DNA of 32,818 bases, taken from the NCBI GenBank assembly GCA_021201035.1, contig JAJQFQ010000133.1, positions 1-32,818 of the forward strand, written 5' to 3'. The translations under genes and the position numbers were made by a program. Positions within the stretch are counted from its first letter, which is position 1. Each line of letters starts with the position of its first letter. Positions 5,376 to 19,447 of the stretch are shown piece after piece. The notes below the pieces were generated by a model that was not told the DNA's origin, made no database searches, and saw only the letters and a program-made list of their open reading frames with translations. Source of the stretch: Clostridiales bacterium. GTDB taxonomy: Bacteria; Bacillota; Clostridia; Lachnospirales; Lachnospiraceae.

Positions 5376-6983
5376 TTAATTTTCATAGGTATCCGGGAAT
5401 AAATGCGCCAGCTCGTCTGAAAAGTTGTAAGTGATTTTTATTCTGTGATCCTCATAAACCCGAATCTCATGGATCATCTCCACTACCATATCCCGATCCA
5501 GCTTTTCTACATTCCGGAATGTGAGCAGTCGTTTCACCCACGGACTTTCCAGAACATCTCCGGCAGTTCTCTTTTCTGACTGGCGTTCCAGATCTTCCAT
5601 CTGCTTTGTAAGCATTTCTTCTTTTTTTACATAATCCTGTCTGTAAGTGACAAACTCGTCTTTGGAAATCAGACCTTCCCGATAATCCTCGTAAACCGCT
5701 TTTTTAAGGTTTCTCAGCTTCTCCAGCTCTGCGGACAAACGGTTCCTTTCGTTTCCGGTTTGACGTTTTGCAAAAGCCTCCTGCGCCTGATTCTGTTCGA
5801 GCAGTTCCTGAAGATTCTCCACACTATCTATGATTGTGTTCAGGTCGTTTCGTATCACATCCTCGAGAACCGAATACGGAATGGCATGTGCGCTGCAATA
5901 CTGTCTGCCGGAGCGGACATAAGTTCCGCAATAGTAGTTGATATTCCCGGCGCCATGTCCAGGTGATCCGATTTTCTTTACCAGCGCCCTGCCGCAGTCC
6001 CCGCATTTCAGGAATCCGGCAAACACAGACATATTAGAGTTCAGGTCAAGCTCGCGTGTCCGGCGTTTCAATAATTCCTGTGTCTTCTGCCAGGTTTCCG
6101 GATCAATGATGGCCTCGTGTGTATGCTCCACAATAATCCAGTCCTCTTTGTCCACGCTGCGCTGCCTGCCTTTCATCCGCTGGGTTTTCCTGCCCTGCAC
6201 CATATTTCCGGCATACATCTCATTTTTCAGGATGCGGTTCACCGTGGAATACGTCCAGTAAGAAGTGCTTTCCAGCTTCCGGCTGTTCCGATAATTTTCG
6301 CCATTCAGCCGCTTATATTCGGACGGACACACAATCCCATCTTCATTCAACGCTTTCGCAATGCTGTTTTTCCCATATCCGCTGACATACATTTTGAAAA
6401 TCCGGCGCACCACATTCGCGGCGTAATCGTCAATCACCAGCTTATTTTGGTCAATGGGAGATTTCCGATAGCCATAGGATGCAAACGCCCCGATAAACTC
6501 CCCAGCCTTTTGCTTGGTTTTCATGGACGCGTGGACTTTCTTTGAAATGTCCCTTGCGTACTGCTCGTTGAAAATATTTTTGATCGGCAGCAGGATATCA
6601 TAAGCCTGTTTCATACTGTCAATATTATCTGTGATAGCGATAAACCGCACATCGTTATCCGGAAAATAACGTTCCAGATATCTGCCGGTCTCAATATAAT
6701 CCCTCCCGAAGCGGGACAAATCTTTGACAACGACACAGTTTACTTTTCCATCCTCGATGTCATCCATCATTCTCATGAAAGATGGCCTTTGAAAGCTAAG
6801 ACCCGTAAAGCCGTCGTCCACATAAGTATCATAGACGACAAATTCGGTCCGTCCTTTCAGATAATCCGCGATCAGTTTCCTCTGGTTTCCGATGCTGTCA
6901 CTTTCTGCCTTATCACCATCCTCTCTGGATAACCTGATATATTCAGCTACGTTGAAAAGAGTTTGTTTCTTCATGTTGCTCAC
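5376..6983 (-). CDS. Large serine recombinase (resolvase + recombinase + zinc-ribbon + coiled-coil)
   Basis: YIRLSREDGDKAESDSIGNQRKLI, VVKDLSRFGRDYIETG, zinc-ribbon CGDCGRALVKK..YYCGTYVRSGRQYCSAH, then a coiled-coil tail. Confidence 0.95.
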   Translation of the reverse strand: MSNMKKQTLFNVAEYIRLSREDGDKAESDSIGNQRKLIADYLKGRTEFVVYDTYVDDGFTGLSFQRPSFMRMMDDIEDGKVNCVVVKDLSRFGRDYIETGRYLERYFPDNDVRFIAITDNIDSMKQAYDILLPIKNIFNEQYARDISKKVHASMKTKQKAGEFIGAFASYGYRKSPIDQNKLVIDDYAANVVRRIFKMYVSGYGKNSIAKALNEDGIVCPSEYKRLNGENYRNSRKLESTSYWTYSTVNRILKNEMYAGNMVQGRKTQRMKGRQRSVDKEDWIIVEHTHEAIIDPETWQKTQELLKRRTRELDLNSNMSVFAGFLKCGDCGRALVKKIGSPGHGAGNINYYCGTYVRSGRQYCSAHAIPYSVLEDVIRNDLNTIIDSVENLQELLEQNQAQEAFAKRQTGNERNRLSAELEKLRNLKKAVYEDYREGLISKDEFVTYRQDYVKKEEMLTKQMEDLERQSEKRTAGDVLESPWVKRLLTFRNVEKLDRDMVVEMIHEIRVYEDHRIKITYNFSDELAHLFPDTYEN

Positions 6984-7954: not shown

Positions 7955-9820
7955 TTAATCCATAAATTCCGCGATCATATCCCAAACGGTATTCTTCTCA
8001 AAACCCAACTTCCAGAAGGAAGCTCCCGCGAGTCCGTTAGACTGCATCACCTCCAACTTTTTCTCAATAGAATACTCATTCTCTATCCAGATCTTGTAGG
8101 TACTGCCCCCGTACTCATACTCCACATAGTACTGACCGCAATCCTCCAGCCATTCATAAGTCGCGTCATTCGCCGCTACACGGGTCTCCGCCTCACTCAT
8201 ACTGACCGCCTCGCTTGTCAGGGTATAACCGTCACCGTTGTCGGTTGTATCCGTATCGGTCTCCGAAGTATTCTCATCCCTGTCCGCCGTATTTTCATCA
8301 GTCTCTGACGCATCCTCGTCATCGTCCGCCGTGCTTTCATCAGAGTCCAATACACCGCTGTCATCCTCCGCTGCCGTCTCATCCGGCGTCAGCTTCCACA
8401 CTCTGGTATAAAACGGTACTCCGAGAATCACCTGTTCTGCCGGGACCTCCTCCAGTGTGTCCGCTACAGCCTGCGTCACAAAGCTCAGTGATGCCACCGA
8501 TCCCTCTTCCGAACCATTATAATGCTCATCATAAGCCATCAGCACAATGTAGTCCGCAAACACCGCCTGTTCATCCCGATTGTAAAATTCATTGTAGGAA
8601 GCCGGCGCATAATTATCAACCGAGAGAACGATGCTGTTATTCCTGCATTTGATTGACAATTCCCGGATAAACTGCAGGAACCCGGCTCCCGCCTCTGCCT
8701 CCAGCGATTCAAAATCAACATTGATCCCGTCCAGATCATATTTAATTGCCTCCGAGACCAGATTATTAACCAGCGCGTCGCGACTGGATGTCACATTCAG
8801 CACCTGCGTTGTATCAACCTCGTCATTTTCCAGATTGCTGACCAGTGCCCAGACCTCTATGCCCTGTTGATGACAATATGTCACATAATCCGAGCTTGCC
8901 AGCGAGGCTATGCCGCCCTCGTCATCGTTGAGGTAAAACCATGTGGGCGAAATGACATTCAATCCTGAGGTCGAAGCAAGGACAGATGAAACGTTTGCAT
9001 TCGCGTCCTGGCTTGTCACCTGATGCCATGCCATATTGATCGTATACGATCTGGAAATGTGGGTAAACTCAGCCTCATCAAAATCACTCTCATAAAGCTC
9101 TGTCTGTGTACTGCCGAGAGACTTATTTTTGACATAGCCGACAAATCCATCCTCCGTACATACCTCTGTCCAGCTGTCCATCTCCTCGATGATGATCACC
9201 CGATCGCCCTTTTCAAGCTCTGTAATGATACTGCTCTTGACTCCGCCCAGTTCCCGCAGCTGTGTGGAGCTTTTCACGGTAACATATTCTATCTCACCCC
9301 ACGCATCTGAAATCACCACACGATTCGGTTCCTCATAATAGTCCCAGCGAATATCTGTATACTGCTCAATGAAAGACAGGGACAGATACATCTCACCATC
9401 CGCCACATGGACAATGACCGCATCCGCCGTCTGAGCCTCCTTCGCCACAGTATACTCCGCCGTCTCCGCCTCCGCATTGACAATACCATCCGGAAGAGTA
9501 TAGCGCAGAATCTGTTCCGTCTCATCCCAGTAAAACCGCTCGTTCAGATAACTGTGAAGCACATCATAGGGAATATACAGCTCGCCATCCATCATCAGCC
9601 CGGTCTCATCCAACACCTCATTGTCATACGTAAGAAGCACATCCTCCTCACTCTCCAGACCGTAAAAAGAAGCATAGTCCGTCGTATCCGACGATGGAAG
9701 ATACTGCTTCAGTATCGTATTCAGAGAAGTGATACCCACGATCAGGACAACCAGTACCACTACCGCTGCTATCAGAATCATTCTTTGTTTTCTCTGTTTT
9801 TTTCTTTTCCGTACCGGCAT
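7955..9820 (-). CDS. Membrane-anchored cell-wall hydrolase: N-terminal TM, copper-amine-oxidase-like stalk, SH3b, GH18 (YaaH/YdhD-like)
   Basis: YDLDGINVDFESLEAEAGAGFLQFIRELS (GH18 DxxDxDxE-like motif), ELEKGDRVIIIEEMDSWTEVCTEDGFVGYVKNKSL (SH3), start preceded by GGAGGAACAG. Confidence 0.9.
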   Translation of the reverse strand: MPVRKRKKQRKQRMILIAAVVVLVVLIVGITSLNTILKQYLPSSDTTDYASFYGLESEEDVLLTYDNEVLDETGLMMDGELYIPYDVLHSYLNERFYWDETEQILRYTLPDGIVNAEAETAEYTVAKEAQTADAVIVHVADGEMYLSLSFIEQYTDIRWDYYEEPNRVVISDAWGEIEYVTVKSSTQLRELGGVKSSIITELEKGDRVIIIEEMDSWTEVCTEDGFVGYVKNKSLGSTQTELYESDFDEAEFTHISRSYTINMAWHQVTSQDANANVSSVLASTSGLNVISPTWFYLNDDEGGIASLASSDYVTYCHQQGIEVWALVSNLENDEVDTTQVLNVTSSRDALVNNLVSEAIKYDLDGINVDFESLEAEAGAGFLQFIRELSIKCRNNSIVLSVDNYAPASYNEFYNRDEQAVFADYIVLMAYDEHYNGSEEGSVASLSFVTQAVADTLEEVPAEQVILGVPFYTRVWKLTPDETAAEDDSGVLDSDESTADDDEDASETDENTADRDENTSETDTDTTDNGDGYTLTSEAVSMSEAETRVAANDATYEWLEDCGQYYVEYEYGGSTYKIWIENEYSIEKKLEVMQSNGLAGASFWKLGFEKNTVWDMIAEFMD

Positions 9821-9947
9821 CTGTTCCTCCAGAATATGCGAAATGTATAGATATACTGTAGTTTAACATGTTTCGCCTTTTTCTGCTACTGTTTTTCATT
9901 TTTTCGATAATCATATGATTTTCCTGCACCCTTTTTTCTAAACGGAC

Positions 9948-10169
9948 ATGACTGCTGACGCAGTCATCACCATGTATGAAAGTCGATGACTCCGCTCTGC
10001 GAGCTCCCGTCATCGCCGCCGATATTCGCAATCCGCGCTATCGCGCTACTTGCTCATACCGTCTTGGTCGTCGAATATCCAGCCATCTGGGTGTGCAAGC
10101 ACCCCCATCTGACTGTCTATTCACGACACTTTCATAGTAAATGGCAGAGGGCATTTCTGCTCCTCTGCC
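9948..10169. repeat. Multi-hairpin intergenic element
   Basis: ATGACTGC/GCAGTCAT (9948-9967); outer arms TATGAAAGT (9975-9983) / ACTTTCATA (10128-10136) enclosing GATGAC/GTCATC (9985-10014), GATATTCG/CGAATATC (10021-10079) and GGGTG/CACCC (10089-10104); then GGCAGAGG/CCTCTGCC (10143-10169). Confidence 0.6.
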
Positions 10170-10198
10170 TGTTGCAGACATTCACTGCCAGTTTTAGT

Positions 10199-13100
10199 TT
10201 ACTCAGTTGCAACCGTTTTCTTCCTACGCTTAAACAGCATATAGAGCCCGAAGACGGACACAGCTGCCCCGATGCCAAGCGCAACCGGAAATGCCGGGGA
10301 TACGCCCGCTTTCGGAAGTTCGAAAGTCACACTGTTCGAAACAGTATATGTAATGTCGCGGAAGTAGTATACTGTCCCATCAGAACTCATTGACGCATTC
10401 GTCAGATCCACATCATCCATGGCCTCAACCGCCTCCACACTCACCATATATGGAAGTTCAAACTCGATTGGCTCCGCCAGAAGCGTCATGCCGTCAACGG
10501 CAGCAGTCTCTACCAGACGATATTTCTCACCATAGGTCAGCTCCTCAAAGGAAGCTATGCCATCCTCATCTGTTGTTGCCGTGCCGATGGAGACATGATC
10601 ACCCAGATCTTCATCGTACATGTAGAGGGTGAAGGTGACGCCTTTCAGCGCATTCCCGTCATCATCCTGTTTTCGGATCCTGACACTGCAGGGCGGCACA
10701 TCCTCGCTGTCTTCTTTGGTGAACTCATCTTTGATCTCTTCATCATCACGCGTCAATGCTGCCGTGCTGCCATTTGAATCCTGTGTGATATTAAGGGTAA
10801 CAACCGTCATTGCGTCGCCGTTATCATCCACAAGCTCATTGCCGTCAGCGTCATACCATGACCCGTCAAGTGTGTATCCGGCCGGTGACACGGTTTCCTC
10901 AATGGTGATCGTGCCGACCGGGATGATCACGTTGCCGTCCTTGTCATAGTACAGCGCGTCGGAGATAACATCCTGGAGGTAGATATAATTACCATTGCCG
11001 TCTTTCTCATCCGACAATTTCGTCACATAACCTCCGTTGCCATCAGACAAGACATTGAGCACCCACATTGCTGTCGGTGCGGCACCTGCCGCCTCAATCT
11101 CGGCCTGTGACGCGTACTGCCCGTCATAGTACAAGACAGTAAACTGTGTACCTTCCATCGTATTGTCCGGGAAGACAATCTCTGCCAGCCCTTCTGCCGG
11201 GACAGCCTTCTTATAGATCTCCAGGCCGCCGCCGTAATACGTGGAGTCGTCCGTTACATCCAGTTCCACGGCATACTCTGCATTCACGGTTTCGGATGTC
11301 ACATTGACCGCATGCGTTACCGTATCCAATTCAAAGCCAGCCGGGGCGAGTGTCTCTTTTACATAATATGTGCCATAAGCGAGTCCTTCCAGGTACTCTG
11401 TCTCGCCGAACTCATCTGTTGTCAGGTAGCCAAGTCCAAGCGTGCCCGTACCATCTGCTTTGATGACATCCCCGGATGCATCCGATGCAGACGCATACAC
11501 GCCGTACACAGCACCTCCCAGTGTATACGTATCCAGGTATTCCGTCAGGTCACGGTCATCTGACTCCTTGTAAACCCGGAGTTTTCCGGTCTCAATATCC
11601 TCTGTAATGGACAGGCTGTCACCGGACAACAGGGAGCTTCCGGATACGCCGGTCGTCAGGTTCGTATATGTCACGCTGCTTGCCGTGCAGGCTGCCTTAT
11701 AGATGGTGCTGTTTAATTCAAAACCTTCCGGTGCCTGCATCTCCTGAATGTAATACGTCCCGACCGCCAGGTCTTTCGAAGCTGCCTTGCCGTCCACATT
11801 CGTTGTCATAGTGGTAAGGAGCGTGCTGCAGGCTTCATCGCTGAAAATGCCGAACACCGCACCTTCTAATGTGTAATTATCGTTGTTGTCTGTTGCATCC
11901 GGGTCAGCGGAAGACTTCACGACCGATAAGGTAACCGTATTTGGTGTCTCCGCTACAGGTATGGTGTATGTTTTCCCATCCCCTGAATTGCCCGATATAA
12001 GAACGGCCTTATTCGTTTCGCTGTTGATCTTGAAACCTTTGGATGCCTTCGTTTCTTTCACATAATACGTCCCAAGAGCCAAATCTGACACGCCTGCATA
12101 TCCATCCGCATTCGTTGTCAGGTATGCAACACCCAGCGTTCCTGTACCGTCATCGCCGATGACATCATTCCCAGCGTCAGATTCAGATCTGTATACACCA
12201 AATACCGCTCCTTCCAGTGTATAATCATCCGCACTATATCCGCCTGGTGCCGTACCTCCTGATTCATCCAGAATATAAGCACTGTCAGAAGAATACTTCC
12301 GGATCTCGATCGAGCCGGTTTTCGGCTTATCATAGATGTACTTCCGGAATACCGTTTTAGTTGTCGTGATCTCGACCGTATACACATTCGGATTCCCGTT
12401 TGCATCAACATCCGCCTCATAGCCTGTCGGAGGGTTTATCTCTTTCAGGTAATATGTTCCGATTGGTATGCCGGTAAGAGAACCAGACGTATACAGTCCG
12501 GACGGGTCTGTGTATTTGGTTGAGCCTGTCGTAAAGGAATCATACAACTGCGAGCAGCCCGCATCGTAATACAGGCCGAACTCCGCACCTTCCAGACTGT
12601 AGTTGTCATTAATGACCCATTCATCCTCCGTATAAACATAATAGCCGGTTATGGTCGCATCAGACGAGTATTTGTATACGTAGATGCTTCCGGTCACAAC
12701 ATCGTCTTCCACCTCAAAATACAATGTTGTCTTTTCATCTTTAACGGCTGTCAGGCTATGGGATCCTGTATCGAGTTTGATGCCGGTGGACTGTCCGCCC
12801 GCCTGTAATTGTGCAAGTTTGGTAGCGTTCTCTTTAATATAATATGTCACTTCCGTTGCTGTCCCGATATCAATCGGGCCGATCGTGTTAGATACGCCGT
12901 TAGCGGAAAGTGTAAGCACAGCAGCCGTTTCAGCCACATCGTCCCCATCCGCATCCCAGTACAGCTGTTCTGTGCAGTCCGCATCCGTATAAACAATATA
13001 CTCAATACCTTCCATTGAATACTCTGTACCTGTCAGATCCTGGTCAATATCCAGCGTTTTCTCCATGGCGATATAAACATTATCAGGCTGTTCCTGCGGA

Positions 13101-16100
13101 TCCGTCGAAGTCACATATTTCAAGCTTGCATCACTCGCTGAGAAAGACCAGGTATTTTCATCCAGCCCGTAGTTGGTTGCCGGCATAGTTTCCTTCACAT
13201 AAATTGTCAGTCCATACGGGACGTCAGTCAGCGCAAATACCGCGGTAGTCTCACCATTGCTGTCAGTCTGGTAATGGTCGAAATCAAACTTCCGGTATTC
13301 TTTTTCAAATTCACTGTCAAGGAACGCCATATATACTGCATCATCCAGATCCAGTTCTGTCTCCTCCGCTTCCGCCTCAGTCACCAGCCCCAGCTTATCT
13401 GCGATGGAAGCAAGGGACATGTTTTCACTAACCGCCCCTGCCACACTGCCAGCCATGCCGGACAGGGCATTTTTTACACGCGACAGGATGCCGGTATCCG
13501 CCGAAGCCGTCAGAGTCGATGTGTCGGCAAAGCTTACTGCGCCGCCATAGCTTACATTGGAAGCTGCGGATTTCGTAGCAACCATGTTCTGTGCCATTGT
13601 AGCGGTTGCCGATGTGCCATACAGTGTAAAGCTTGTGCCAGATGCTGTACTGCATCGAACGAACATACCTTCATGAGATGTCGTAGTGGAACACCGCCAG
13701 ATCAACGAGCCGGTCAGGTTAGTACAATTGAGAAACATGTTGCCAGCATCCGTCACGTGTAAGGTAGAGATGTTGGCCAGTCCGGATACAGTTGTCAGTG
13801 CCGTACAGCCGTTAAATATACTGGACATGTCCGTTACTTTTGCAGTATTCCAGCCAGTAATATTAATCGACTTCAGGCTGGGACAGTTATAGAACATAGC
13901 CGATATATCCGTCGCATTCCCTACCTTAAAGGTTCTGAGGTCCAGGCTGGTCAGGCTGGTACAGTTCATGAACATACAAGTAAAATTTGTTACTCTTGTT
14001 GTGTCAAAGTTGCTGATATCAATGGAAGTCAGCAGGTTGCAGCCACGGAACATGGCCGTCATATCTGTACAGTCACTGGTATCAAGCGTATCCAGTCCCG
14101 TAATACTGGTCAGGGATGAATCTGCTGCGGTAAGGCCTATCGCTGATCGATAATAAACCTGGAACATGGATTCCATGTTCGTCACATTCTGTGTATTGAA
14201 TTCACTGACATCCAGTGTTTTCAAAGATATAACGTGGTCAAACATATGGTTCATGTCAGTCGCATACGACGTGTCAATGACCTTGGTTCCGAAATCAATA
14301 GACACAATATCCGTCATTGCACTAAACATAAAACTGCTGTCATAATTGAAATAAATCAGCCCGGCATCATCCCCTTCGCCTGTCGGGACATCGGATACAT
14401 AGCATGTCGTCCCGACCATCCAGGCAATCACACCGCCGTTCTGCGCATAAGACACATCAATCGTTGTCGTTGAGTCGGACGGTGACTTGGTGTTCGTGAA
14501 TACAATGCTCTTCAGGGTCTTGCCTTCACTCTCTGCCAGTGCCATGATATCCGCATCAAAGTCCGGCCCGGTCTCCAGCATCGCCATGGGACCTTTGTAG
14601 ACGTAGAACGTCCGGGTTTTCGGCGTATCTGTGCTCTTTACAATACCTACATCGTTGTCTGCGGTGAGTTTAACCGGATGCACCTCAGTGTCAATCTCAA
14701 AGTTCGCCGGTGCGCTGGTTTCCTGTACATACACGTATGTATCATCGCCGCTGTACAAAATCCCGTCCAGCTCACCGTACCCGTCCTCATTGATCGTGAT
14801 CGTGCCTGCAGGGCGGGAACATACATTGTCATTGCACTCATAATATACCGTGTATACTGCACCTTCCAGAGAGTAATAATCCGGGTAATCCTCAAGCAGG
14901 GACGAGTCACTGGATGATTTGTACACGATGACCTTGCCAAGATCCAACGGGTCGCTCACCGTCACTTCCACTGTCATGTTTGACTCGGAAACGACAGTGC
15001 TGTCCGCAGTCACGGTATGTACTTCATCGCTGAGTTCATAGCCTTCCGGGGCTGTGATCTCCTTCACATAATAAGTGCCCATGGGGAGTTCAACAGAGCT
15101 CGTGCCCTTCCCATCTTCATCTGTCGTGATCATATGCAACAGCTTTGTGCAGTCGCTGTCAGAATAGATACCATATACAGCACCTTCCAGTGTATAATCC
15201 TCATGGAGCGCAAGCTCGTTCGCTTTCACCGTGTCGCTGACCTGCCCTCCACCATCGGAACTCATAACAGCCACGCTGTCAAAGTCAGTCTCTTTCGTCA
15301 GCTCGATCGTGATCGTGATCGGCTCATCCCAGAAGGACAGGCTGAAGCTGGTTTCTGCCGTTGTGGAGCTGACAACCACCGACTTTATCTCAGAGTTTAA
15401 GAAGAAGCCTTTCGGTGCCGTGATCTCCTTGACATAATACGTGCCGTAAGGCAGGTTGGACGCCGTGCCGTAAGCGCGCTTGTTTGTGGAATCATACTGG
15501 TCTAATGACACCGTAGCCACAGCCGTGCCGCTGCAGACGCTGTTTGTATAAACACCGAACGTCGCCCCGGAGGCAAGCGAATACGCACTGTTGCCGTCCG
15601 TAGTGCTGTTGTCTTCCGAATACTTGTAGATTTTAAGATCTCCTGTATACGGTTCTTCTGTCGATGTAACGGTGCTTGTTTTTCCATTCGTTACAGTTAC
15701 CGAATACACATTCGTGTCAAGCTTGTAGCCTTTCGAAGCCACGATCTCCTTGATATAATACGTACCCGGGTCAAGGGAGATCGTTTCTGTATTCCCGCTG
15801 GAATCCGTGGTCAGGGTTGCAATACGGTTCGTATTGTTGGAGTTAGTGCCGGTTGCCGCGGCTTTAGCTTCCGCCTCGGTTTTAAAAATCTGGTACTTCG
15901 CGTTAGCCAGCGAGTAATTGCTGTTGCCGGAAGTGATCGTCGTATTGCTCGACACTTTCTTCACCTGTGCTTTACCTTTTGTCTGCGTGCCGACTTTGAA
16001 TAAAGCTACAGAACTCTGGCTGTGCGTCATCTGCGTGATGATGCCAAACACTGCATACGTTGTCCCTGCGGAATCCGTGCCGGTCGCCAGGAGGCGGAGC

Positions 16101-17482
16101 CGTGCATTAACGACAGTTGCGCTGTTGGAAGCTTTGCCGAGAGACGTGCTGATATGCCCGCACTGCAGCACCATCGTTGATGAAATGCTGCCCAGACCGG
16201 AATTAATGGATGACAGGTTGCCCTGGTTCAGCCATACAGCCGTGTTTGTCTGCTTTGCCTGAGACAAAGACATGATATGTGAAATACTGTAAGCCGTGTT
16301 GCTGTCGACCGCGCTCATCAGTTCAGCCGTATAGCCGTCATTTTCCGCTAATGCACCGTACACTGTAGATGTATGCTGGTAGACATCCGAGTAGCTGTAT
16401 CCGACCGTACAGTCAATGTACGAGCCGACAGACATGGAGCCGATATTGATGTTACGGGCAAAGTAACTCATATCATCCCAGGATGAAATCGCCGTGTATG
16501 CCTGGGCTGTCTCCGTAAACACGCTGTCTGCCGCCGAAAGCAGTTTATCCAATAATCCGCTGTTTTCATCACTTACAGTCACGGACACGCTCTGCACGGA
16601 AGTCGGGGACTGCGCAATAGTAAGCTCGCCGCTCTCAGAATCATACGTATAGTAATCCTCAGAAAGAGGCGCGCCGTCCACGGACACGGACGCAATGGTA
16701 AGCCCCTCATCCACCGTTACCGTTGTCTCTGTGTCAAAGAACGTTGTCTTCTGCTCCGTGGAGGATAAGATATCATCCCCGTCATCTACAGTAACGGTCG
16801 TCGTTGCCGTGTCCTCATCCATGGAGATCAGCTGCATCAGCTGTACCTGCAGGTACAGGATCTCCTGTTCGCCTGCATCATTTAACAGCAGAACCCTGGG
16901 AATGTAGGCGATGCCGGTTTCCGCGTCATAGATGCACCCGTCCACCGTCTCACCTTCATTGCTGTTCACTGCAAACACAGCTTCCCGTGTCTCGGCAGAG
17001 CTTTCATCACCCAGGTACGCCACCAGGTAATCACTGTCCTCATCCAGTTCATATACAGCCACATACCCGGACGTCTGCATGATGTACTTTTCAAGGGCTG
17101 CAGAAGCCGCTGCTCCATCGCCTTCCTCAATGTCCGTCATGATGGAGTTGATCGTATCCGAATCGTCCACCAGATCCGCATCAAAGAATGTCTGTTTTAA
17201 AAGGATGTAATTAACTAGCTTTTTATCCGACGTGTCGGTATATTCCTCATCCGCGTTCTCCTCAATGTAATCCTCCAGCAGCGGATCTGTGACAGCATCC
17301 CCGACATCAATATCGAATATATCCGCAGACACATCTGCAGATGAATCCCCTGAGCCTGCCGCAGCTGCGACTTTCCCTGTGATAGTATCCGTCACTGTTT
17401 CCGCAGCATAGCCCTGTACCACGGTTGACAAGAGGAGTATTGCCGCCAGCAGCAGGGCTGACAGCCGCTTTGCTTTTTTCAT
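10199..17482 (-). CDS. Giant sortase-anchored pilus adhesin: signal peptide, about 12 SpaA/prealbumin-like repeats, central DUF285 (BspA-type) block, LPKAG sorting signal
   Basis: MKKAKRLSALLLAAILLLSTVVQGYAAE; repeated YTLEGAVFGIYSD..C..LL..LP.GTYYVKEITAP.GFELD; C-terminus ELPKAGVSPAFPVALGIGAAVSVFGLYMLFKRRKK. Confidence 0.93.
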   Translation of the reverse strand: MKKAKRLSALLLAAILLLSTVVQGYAAETVTDTITGKVAAAAGSGDSSADVSADIFDIDVGDAVTDPLLEDYIEENADEEYTDTSDKKLVNYILLKQTFFDADLVDDSDTINSIMTDIEEGDGAAASAALEKYIMQTSGYVAVYELDEDSDYLVAYLGDESSAETREAVFAVNSNEGETVDGCIYDAETGIAYIPRVLLLNDAGEQEILYLQVQLMQLISMDEDTATTTVTVDDGDDILSSTEQKTTFFDTETTVTVDEGLTIASVSVDGAPLSEDYYTYDSESGELTIAQSPTSVQSVSVTVSDENSGLLDKLLSAADSVFTETAQAYTAISSWDDMSYFARNINIGSMSVGSYIDCTVGYSYSDVYQHTSTVYGALAENDGYTAELMSAVDSNTAYSISHIMSLSQAKQTNTAVWLNQGNLSSINSGLGSISSTMVLQCGHISTSLGKASNSATVVNARLRLLATGTDSAGTTYAVFGIITQMTHSQSSVALFKVGTQTKGKAQVKKVSSNTTITSGNSNYSLANAKYQIFKTEAEAKAAATGTNSNNTNRIATLTTDSSGNTETISLDPGTYYIKEIVASKGYKLDTNVYSVTVTNGKTSTVTSTEEPYTGDLKIYKYSEDNSTTDGNSAYSLASGATFGVYTNSVCSGTAVATVSLDQYDSTNKRAYGTASNLPYGTYYVKEITAPKGFFLNSEIKSVVVSSTTAETSFSLSFWDEPITITIELTKETDFDSVAVMSSDGGGQVSDTVKANELALHEDYTLEGAVYGIYSDSDCTKLLHMITTDEDGKGTSSVELPMGTYYVKEITAPEGYELSDEVHTVTADSTVVSESNMTVEVTVSDPLDLGKVIVYKSSSDSSLLEDYPDYYSLEGAVYTVYYECNDNVCSRPAGTITINEDGYGELDGILYSGDDTYVYVQETSAPANFEIDTEVHPVKLTADNDVGIVKSTDTPKTRTFYVYKGPMAMLETGPDFDADIMALAESEGKTLKSIVFTNTKSPSDSTTTIDVSYAQNGGVIAWMVGTTCYVSDVPTGEGDDAGLIYFNYDSSFMFSAMTDIVSIDFGTKVIDTSYATDMNHMFDHVISLKTLDVSEFNTQNVTNMESMFQVYYRSAIGLTAADSSLTSITGLDTLDTSDCTDMTAMFRGCNLLTSIDISNFDTTRVTNFTCMFMNCTSLTSLDLRTFKVGNATDISAMFYNCPSLKSINITGWNTAKVTDMSSIFNGCTALTTVSGLANISTLHVTDAGNMFLNCTNLTGSLIWRCSTTTSHEGMFVRCSTASGTSFTLYGTSATATMAQNMVATKSAASNVSYGGAVSFADTSTLTASADTGILSRVKNALSGMAGSVAGAVSENMSLASIADKLGLVTEAEAEETELDLDDAVYMAFLDSEFEKEYRKFDFDHYQTDSNGETTAVFALTDVPYGLTIYVKETMPATNYGLDENTWSFSASDASLKYVTSTDPQEQPDNVYIAMEKTLDIDQDLTGTEYSMEGIEYIVYTDADCTEQLYWDADGDDVAETAAVLTLSANGVSNTIGPIDIGTATEVTYYIKENATKLAQLQAGGQSTGIKLDTGSHSLTAVKDEKTTLYFEVEDDVVTGSIYVYKYSSDATITGYYVYTEDEWVINDNYSLEGAEFGLYYDAGCSQLYDSFTTGSTKYTDPSGLYTSGSLTGIPIGTYYLKEINPPTGYEADVDANGNPNVYTVEITTTKTVFRKYIYDKPKTGSIEIRKYSSDSAYILDESGGTAPGGYSADDYTLEGAVFGVYRSESDAGNDVIGDDGTGTLGVAYLTTNADGYAGVSDLALGTYYVKETKASKGFKINSETNKAVLISGNSGDGKTYTIPVAETPNTVTLSVVKSSADPDATDNNDNYTLEGAVFGIFSDEACSTLLTTMTTNVDGKAASKDLAVGTYYIQEMQAPEGFELNSTIYKAACTASSVTYTNLTTGVSGSSLLSGDSLSITEDIETGKLRVYKESDDRDLTEYLDTYTLGGAVYGVYASASDASGDVIKADGTGTLGLGYLTTDEFGETEYLEGLAYGTYYVKETLAPAGFELDTVTHAVNVTSETVNAEYAVELDVTDDSTYYGGGLEIYKKAVPAEGLAEIVFPDNTMEGTQFTVLYYDGQYASQAEIEAAGAAPTAMWVLNVLSDGNGGYVTKLSDEKDGNGNYIYLQDVISDALYYDKDGNVIIPVGTITIEETVSPAGYTLDGSWYDADGNELVDDNGDAMTVVTLNITQDSNGSTAALTRDDEEIKDEFTKEDSEDVPPCSVRIRKQDDDGNALKGVTFTLYMYDEDLGDHVSIGTATTDEDGIASFEELTYGEKYRLVETAAVDGMTLLAEPIEFELPYMVSVEAVEAMDDVDLTNASMSSDGTVYYFRDITYTVSNSVTFELPKAGVSPAFPVALGIGAAVSVFGLYMLFKRRKKTVATE

Positions 17483-17585: not shown

Positions 17586-18530
17586 TCAGCCCGCATCAGC
17601 CGTCCTGCATTCACCGGCAGTAATGCGTTCTCTTCTCCGCCCGGTAATAAGACAGATCAGAAAGATAATGATAAGCGCAACTCCGCATACATAGCGGAAC
17701 AACCGTTCTCTGTCTATATCAGACTGAGAAGCCGGGTAAATATTCCCATCTGATGCCGTAATGGCATCGCCCGCGCCTCCGGAAAACTGTATGTCTGTCC
17801 CCAGTACCGAATCATCCCGCACACAGTATACAGCATAGCGATACTTCCCGTGGGAACGATAAGGATGACATGTGACCAGCGTCACCATATCTTTTCCTTC
17901 CTGTATCATCACTTTGCCTGAACCCACCGGGCTGATGATGTCTATGGATTCGACACGGTAGCCGAGCGTTCCCCACGGGTTGGTGATATACACTGCACCC
18001 CCGACACCCAGCTTTTCAATCTCACGGAAGAACGGAATGCCGCGGTAGCCGCGATGCGCAGCAATCACGCAGTTTGTATTCTCCCCGCCGACAGGCAGAG
18101 AAGTAGCTCCGAGGATGGCTGCGCCTTTGGCAAGGTTTTTGGCAGAAGCGCCCACATATAGAGGAAGCGTGACATCCATCGCCGGGATTTCAATATACCC
18201 AAAGATACCATCTTCCAACCCTTCAATGGACGGTGCCTGCGTCACCGCCCAGGCATCACAAAAATCCGCCTGTCCGTTTTCCCACAGCTCCAGATTATAA
18301 GCCTGCACCTGCTCCCACAGATTATCTGAAGATGTGATGATATCGTACTCTTCTGCCCTTTCTGCAGCATCAGTTGTTTCATCCGCAGCATCATCCACAG
18401 CGGCGTCAAATGCTTCTATCACCCGGGCATTCTCCTGTTTCAGGAGCCATGAATTGATCTCCGGAAACAGAAAGATCCCGATACCTGCCAGAAGAAACGC
18501 CGCACACAGGATTTTTTTAACGTTCCTCAT
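17586..18530 (-). CDS. Sortase (class C-like)
   Basis: IFGYIEIPAMDVTLPLYVGAS..CVIAAHRGY..MVTLVTCHPYRSHGKYRYAVYCVR, N-terminal TM; 1-nt stop/start overlap with the upstream sortase. Confidence 0.9.
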   Translation of the reverse strand: MRNVKKILCAAFLLAGIGIFLFPEINSWLLKQENARVIEAFDAAVDDAADETTDAAERAEEYDIITSSDNLWEQVQAYNLELWENGQADFCDAWAVTQAPSIEGLEDGIFGYIEIPAMDVTLPLYVGASAKNLAKGAAILGATSLPVGGENTNCVIAAHRGYRGIPFFREIEKLGVGGAVYITNPWGTLGYRVESIDIISPVGSGKVMIQEGKDMVTLVTCHPYRSHGKYRYAVYCVRDDSVLGTDIQFSGGAGDAITASDGNIYPASQSDIDRERLFRYVCGVALIIIFLICLITGRRRERITAGECRTADAG

Positions 18531-19447
18531 TATTTTCTCACCTCATCCTGACCCTGCTTTTCATCTACGGAATTTTCTTCAGGAATTCGCCATTTCTTCT
18601 TTCGGAACAGACGCACGTACTGGACAAATACAACGATGCATCCGATAGCTGCCAACGCGATGATAAGCGCTTCCCTGTATGCTTTCATCCACTCTGAAGA
18701 AGAATCCAGCTCCTGCCTGTCTGCTTCCGCCTGCAAATCCTCTGTGTACTCCGTCCGTTCACCGGTCACAATCAGCCGGTGTGAGTTCACGCCGTAAGGC
18801 GTGCAGGTCATTAATGTCATCAGATCGAGGTCTTCCTGCGCCGTCACGGACGAAACATCGTCCGGTTCTATGACCTGTATGTCAAAAACACGATAAGCAA
18901 GGGTTTCATCCAGCACATGGATAAAAAACAGATCCCCTTCCTCCATCTCCACCAGGTCAGAGAACATTTTGGCAGAATTAATCCCCGTGTGTGCCGAGAT
19001 GACCGGCCTGCCGCCCGCCGTCCCGATCGGGAGCGCCGTGCCTTCCACATGCCCCGCACCTTTTGACAGTACCTCTGATGAAGTGCCGTGATAGACAGGC
19101 AGGTAAACATTGATCTTTGGAATTTCAATAAAGCACATGATCCCGGAACCGTCCGTATCCAGAACATCCTCATACTCCACATCGCATTCTGCCGCAAGGT
19201 ATTTTTCTGTAAACGGATCTGTCAATGACACTTCTGAGGCAAGGAGTTTCGTGTTATATGCCTCCGCCTCCGCCCGATAAACAGCCAGTTCTTCTGTAGA
19301 GGAAGAATCCATAACAGCTTCATATCCGTCTGCCGTGGACTCTGTTGCATGCTCAAACAGCCGGTTGCTCACCCACGGGTAAAGTGTCAGCATCAGCCCG
19401 GCAGCAACGATCAGGACAGCGAAAACTTTTTTCAGCCTGTCATGCAT
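18530..19447 (-). CDS. Class C sortase
   Basis: MCFIEIPKINVYLPVYHGTS..PVISAHTGINSAKMFSDL..DLMTLMTCTPYGVNSHRLIVTGERTEY, N- and C-terminal TM helices. Confidence 0.95.
   Translation of the reverse strand: MHDRLKKVFAVLIVAAGLMLTLYPWVSNRLFEHATESTADGYEAVMDSSSTEELAVYRAEAEAYNTKLLASEVSLTDPFTEKYLAAECDVEYEDVLDTDGSGIMCFIEIPKINVYLPVYHGTSSEVLSKGAGHVEGTALPIGTAGGRPVISAHTGINSAKMFSDLVEMEEGDLFFIHVLDETLAYRVFDIQVIEPDDVSSVTAQEDLDLMTLMTCTPYGVNSHRLIVTGERTEYTEDLQAEADRQELDSSSEWMKAYREALIIALAAIGCIVVFVQYVRLFRKKKWRIPEENSVDEKQGQDEVRK

Follow-up and report, generated by a model that had tools for sequence, protein, structure and literature searches.

The Clostridiales-1 motif, which occurs in Clostridiales and in human gut sequences, has been considered to be probably an RNA and not cis-regulatory, and the main text of its description gives no function for it (Weinberg et al., 2010; PMC2864571). 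It is registered in Rfam as RF01699, under the type gene/sRNA. In the searchable, open-licence literature, no treatment of its biology naming the accession was found, and neither was any description of Clostridiales-1 as a mobile element.

The copy described here lies in a window of 32,818 nucleotides, the whole stretch of DNA that was analysed, from a draft assembly (235 contigs, 2.44 Mb) of an uncultured gut Lachnospiraceae. An original prediction had drawn attention to a nested multi-hairpin cluster in this window and had suggested either a dispersed repeat of the REP/MITE type or a structured RNA. The two descriptions hold at once: the cluster is most probably a short, non-autonomous, MITE-like mobile element of about 160-220 bp, the body of which is the Clostridiales-1 RNA.

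The Clostridiales-1 locus and its fold

Positions 9977-10134 of the window, on the minus strand, were matched by cmscan to RF01699 over the entire model (1-166), with a score of 111.6 bits, the gathering score being 48 (E 1.2e-26 for 501 bases); this full-length covariance-model match above the curated cut-off makes the sequence a member of the family. As predicted, the cluster is located between a pilus operon and a GH18 gene, and all of these neighbours, identified with Pfam, are on the minus strand. Upstream and co-directional lies the gene of a SpaA/DUF285 surface (pilus-type) protein, a SpaA-fold pilin or adhesin (10199-17482), with sortases encoded at 17586-19447, and downstream, also co-directional, is that of a GH18 protein with SH3 and copper-amine-oxidase-N domains (7955-9820). 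A large serine recombinase with Resolvase, Recombinase and Zn-ribbon domains (5376-6983, minus strand) is also encoded near the pilus-type locus. The open reading frames that overlap the cluster are mechanical antisense frames, and, judged by position, none is a plausible gene, in line with the prediction that no convincing one would explain it.

The outer stem is formed by a perfect inverted repeat, TATGAAAGT at 9975-9983 and ACTTTCATA at 10128-10136, with the anticipated 144 nt between its arms. In the RNA sense, which is that of the minus strand, TATGAAAGT is the 5' arm (10128-10136) and ACTTTCATA the 3' arm (9975-9983). Three stem arms are enclosed. The first (roughly 10067-10127) is a long hairpin with a conserved TGCTTGCA tip, as seen in the minimum-free-energy fold of the window copy and in the alignment. 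The second (10020-10061) carries the most conserved motifs, TGAG.AAGTAG ... CGGATT.CGAAT, and the third (9984-10015), GATGACGGGAGC ... GCGGAGTCATC, has an internal loop with GGGAG/CGGAG motifs; both are delineated by the fold and by covariation. One extra hairpin lies on each side of the outer stem, at about 9942-9973 and 10143-10169, so that the two flanking hairpins of the prediction are both present, but only the former belongs to the repeat. This 3' hairpin, after which comes a short TTT run, recurs with the window's subfamily and is also found solo elsewhere (fold and blastn). The other, detected as an inverted repeat and in a terminator scan, lies past the pilin stop codon, ahead of the repeat, is weakly terminator-like, and is local to the site, with no counterpart in the 5' flanks of other copies. 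The repeat unit, core plus 3' hairpin, extends over approximately 9938-10142 on the minus strand, as defined by blastn to same-genome copies, which match the query (9930-10180) from its position 9 or so to 213.

Folding of the 256-nt region is far more stable than that of its shuffles on both strands, most of all on the minus strand (-116.9 kcal/mol, z -9.2, compared with -93.6 kcal/mol, z -6.0, on the plus strand), and none of 200 shuffles matched the native energy. Covariation was analysed in an alignment of 40 sequences from the host genome and its relatives, and covers arms 2 and 3, arm 1 being too variable to be included in the shared alignment. RNAalifold predicted 20 pairs in the two arms, 15 of which show compensatory changes (7 of 9 consensus pairs in arm 2, and 8 of 11 in arm 3). 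Paired cells amounted to 98.1%, against 80.3% after shuffling, and the covariation score was 0.554, compared with 0.203 after shuffling and no more than 0.13 with the partner slid. The conserved, covarying structure that characterizes RF01699 is therefore present, and the structured-RNA part of the prediction is borne out, in the form of a known family. In all 30 full-length copies the RNA-sense strand was the stabler one, by a mean of -13.6 kcal/mol, while in flanking controls the mean strand difference was -3.4 kcal/mol (sd 10.9); the fold is therefore maintained on one strand.

Dispersal and mobility of the family

Searches of the host genome yielded 48 blastn matches to the repeat and 59 covariance-model matches in 2.44 Mb, 48 of them above the cut-off. 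The element is thus short, non-coding, multi-copy and dispersed, as are MITEs; a single copy devoid of covariation, the outcome that had been named as contrary to the prediction, is not what was found. The count is slightly inflated, because copies at L038/L039 (G000:C173) and L096 (G000:C77), a few kb apart, have identical flanks on both sides and represent either local segmental duplications or assembly artefacts.

Among related genomes, 33 of 61 were positive for Clostridiales-1, with 0 to 38 copies per genome under stricter filters, and the count is patchy even inside the genus, one genome of which has 0. A phylum-wide sample gave matches in 4 of 250 genomes, namely the host and three of the same family, and 14 control genomes gave none. 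The pattern specific to the window's subfamily matched only metagenome-assembled genomes labelled as uncultured 'Clostridiales' and 'Lachnospiraceae'. Carriage by phages was considered and rejected, since viral contigs contained no match to the pattern.

Insertion polymorphism, another hallmark of MITEs, was observed for several copies of the host genome (G000) when their flanks were joined and searched for across the genus. A pstB-phoU site is occupied in the host; in G010 the element is doubled there, and in G001 the site is empty. An L,D-transpeptidase site has no insertion in either G010 or G015, both gene names having been read by eye from the flanking reading frames, and G003 has an empty site at the position of L047 (TTAATTA-TATGAAG). 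The same search gave no empty site for the window copy itself, G015 and G010 matching its downstream side and differing in the upstream sequence. Spread is also visible inside genomes, with three copies that are 100% identical in unrelated flanks in G018 and seven that are about 96-98% identical in G021. The family hence combines a patchy, high copy number with empty orthologous sites and identical copies in unrelated surroundings.

A footprint of insertion is found in the TGATAC-type subfamily. Complete units of this type, present in G021, G027, G018, G010 and others, read TGATAC...core...GTATCA, followed by a second hairpin and ATCA, and are surrounded by 5-bp direct repeats such as TAGTA, TTATA, TTTGA, TATCA or TCTGA. 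When the right end was set by a fixed rule, an exact 5-bp duplication flanked the core and 3' hairpin in 13 of 30 copies, while 20,000 permuted pairings produced a mean of 1.1 exact matches and a maximum of 6, which strongly indicates DNA transposition of this subfamily. In the TGAAAG type, to which the window copy belongs, the right end is less clearly delimited and the flanks are mostly TTTACTA-like; the duplication test showed no excess (P 0.76, 9 usable copies), and at the window copy 3 of 5 bases match as a duplication. The mobility of the window copy therefore rests on its status as a repeat and on its kinship.

Some copies contain extra hairpins at fixed positions inside the element. 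Module X, of about 50 nt (ATAAGTGAGATAG...CTTATGCARAGC), has ten copies in the host genome (L269-L278, e.g. L275, C172:1607-1636). Nine are in clear Clostridiales-1 contexts, of both subfamilies, where the module splits a GGGA or CGGA motif in arm 3 and has one constant orientation relative to the element, and the tenth (C157) adjoins a TGATACCAGGGTCAAAA element start; two distant relatives (L279, L280) have module X in other mosaic contexts. In at least six copies, among them C171:603-818, C208:21339-21497, C113:111-262, C172:7276-7435, C167:4051-4212 and C61:5450-5582 of the host genome, arm 2 is interrupted at one and the same point by module Y (TAATGCTCTCCC...), the second hairpin module (TAATGCTCTCCCTTAATGAGCATG...GAGAGCTTATGCA), whose 3' end is the same as that of module X. 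Head-to-tail partial copies adjoin 7 of the 59 copies, and the genome G057 harbors a tandem array of five head-to-tail units, with a 149-bp period and 93% matches (L199 1345-2084; G057:C1, about 1.032 Mb). Partial tails and arrays of this kind are atypical of a plain MITE and count against that reading.

Gene context and candidate mobilising enzymes

According to crude ORF calls, the 5' end of 18 of the 59 copies lies no more than 40 nt from a co-directional stop codon, compared with 3 in which it is equally close to the start of a gene of opposite direction. Among copies with close neighbours on both sides, the ++ arrangement, in which the two genes run with the element, prevails over the -- arrangement, in which they run against it (19 versus 5, P 0.007). 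The window copy is of the ++ kind, lying 64 nt past the stop codon of the pilin gene, on that gene's strand, with the co-directional GH18 gene downstream. The first bases of the element (TGA) can supply or replace the upstream stop codon, as seen in the host at L053, L045, L035, L042 and C172:7276; at L053, the reading frame enters the element by a few codons. In G057, a single contig with dnaA at 1.058 Mb, where the GC skew switches, the RNA sense is on the leading strand at 9 of 12 independent sites. A lagging-strand (single-strand) bias of insertion was considered and not taken up, as the sites are no more biased than the genes and the comparison does not discriminate; the effects of replication and of gene direction are not separable there.

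Covarying structure, a sense-strand folding bias and sense orientation behind stop codons are thus properties of the family, and they lend some appeal to the view that it is a selected functional small RNA, or an RNA processing or stabilizing element, that multiplied through the service of each copy to its host gene, mobility being incidental. The invariant loop motifs, the Rfam type and the opinion, in the main text of the description, that the motif is probably RNA and not cis-regulatory (PMC2864571) point in the same direction. This view is nevertheless unlikely to be correct: neighbouring genes vary widely, copies are missing from orthologous sites in sister species and altogether from one genome of the same genus, and TGATAC-type insertions are accompanied by target duplications.

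Another alternative is that the element is a REP/BIME- or IS200/IS605-type palindrome, mobilised as single-stranded DNA by a Y1 transposase (TnpA/RAYT; PF01797). Its richness in hairpins and the TTTAC-like 5' flanks of the window's subfamily are consistent with that mechanism, as is the occurrence of Y1 genes or fragments, often broken, in 9 of 14 copy-bearing genomes. An intact 202-aa RAYT-like Y1 transposase is encoded in two species, G015 (L256, C97) and G010 (L260, C205), between which it is conserved; in both it has the same neighbour and is not beside the repeat; this gene is possibly domesticated. On the other hand, Y1 genes are absent from the host genome, from G005 and G006, and from the copy-rich G011, G018 and G021, an absence that is not absolute in draft genomes. 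Insertion sequences are easily lost from draft assemblies. Among the fetched loci, no copy adjoins a RAYT gene, so that the arrangement typical of REP/RAYT or IS200/IS605 systems, with a Y1 gene in the genome and adjoining a copy, was not encountered. Furthermore, IS200/IS605 insertion makes no target duplication, whereas the TGATAC type has one. Mobilisation by a Y1 enzyme is accordingly improbable, and of the two classes joined in the original prediction, MITE-like suits the element better, owing to the target duplications in the sister subfamily, and REP less well, as there is no consistent link to Y1/RAYT genes.

A parent element was sought through matches to the repeat's ends. Among the end-only matches in G000 and G021, none belongs to a transposase gene; they adjoin ordinary genes and were rejected as an autonomous parent. 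Two identical solo hairpins on contig C77 were also rejected as parent ends, because they flank not a transposon but a duplicated stretch, in which a histidinol-dehydrogenase-like ORF was identified by eye.

A main role as transcription terminator of the pilus-type operon is improbable and weakly supported: the element does sit where the operon was predicted to terminate, on the same strand and shortly past the pilin stop codon, but the one weak site returned by a scan for intrinsic terminators (G+C hairpin and U run; 10160-10144, with 0.4 expected by chance) is the local hairpin 5' of the repeat. After the 3' hairpin that belongs to the repeat itself comes TTT only, and many copies lie between co-directional genes, where a strong terminator would often be costly.

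Proposed life cycle and comparison with known systems

If the element is MITE-like, a transposase acting in trans would move it with a 5-bp staggered cut, and the TGAAAG-type window copy would have moved in the same way as the related TGATAC-type copies. Once inserted, the element would form part of the upstream gene's transcript, as a structured RNA in the 3' UTR or between cistrons, and sense insertions might be tolerated or favoured because the compact fold harms the transcript little, or because it protects or processes it. The window copy would then be a passenger, with the pilus-type operon on one side and the GH18 gene on the other, any effect on the 3' end of the operon being secondary. 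A more far-reaching and doubtful proposal is that the RNA-sense fold is itself needed for the life cycle, which would make this a new type of mobile element. The fold might, for example, be recognised as RNA or as a single strand in mobilisation, or direct placement behind the stop codons of transcribed genes; the element would grow by hairpin modules at fixed internal loops, and its fold would be selected for transposition, not for host regulation.

A catalogued 'small RNA' that is common in gut Lachnospiraceae seems to form the body of a mobile element, which would explain its lack of a consistent gene context. Clostridiales-1 copies should not be taken as regulatory genes, and the question is raised of why a transposable repeat keeps a strand-specific, covarying fold and lies, in the sense orientation, right behind stop codons.

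The family as modelled in RF01699 resembles the window copy in sequence and fold over the whole model, in strand and in host group (Clostridiales and gut). It covers the core only, and the main text of the description (PMC2864571) mentions neither the dispersed, mobile nature of the element nor its recurrent 3' hairpin, nor the 5-bp duplications or the hairpin modules inserted in some copies. REP/BIME sequences with their RAYT (Y1) enzymes are also dispersed intergenic palindromes, often composite, whereas the present element has a much larger cloverleaf, target duplications and no consistent Y1 gene. The BOX-type repeats of streptococci, which are modular, structured and intergenic as well, are a possible parallel. 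With bacterial MITEs it shares small size, lack of coding capacity, many copies and empty sites, and, in the TGATAC type, target duplications and short inverted ends (TGAT...ATCA). It differs from them in that no parent was found, and in its tandem arrays, its covarying, strand-asymmetric RNA-sense fold and its strong sense orientation behind stop codons.
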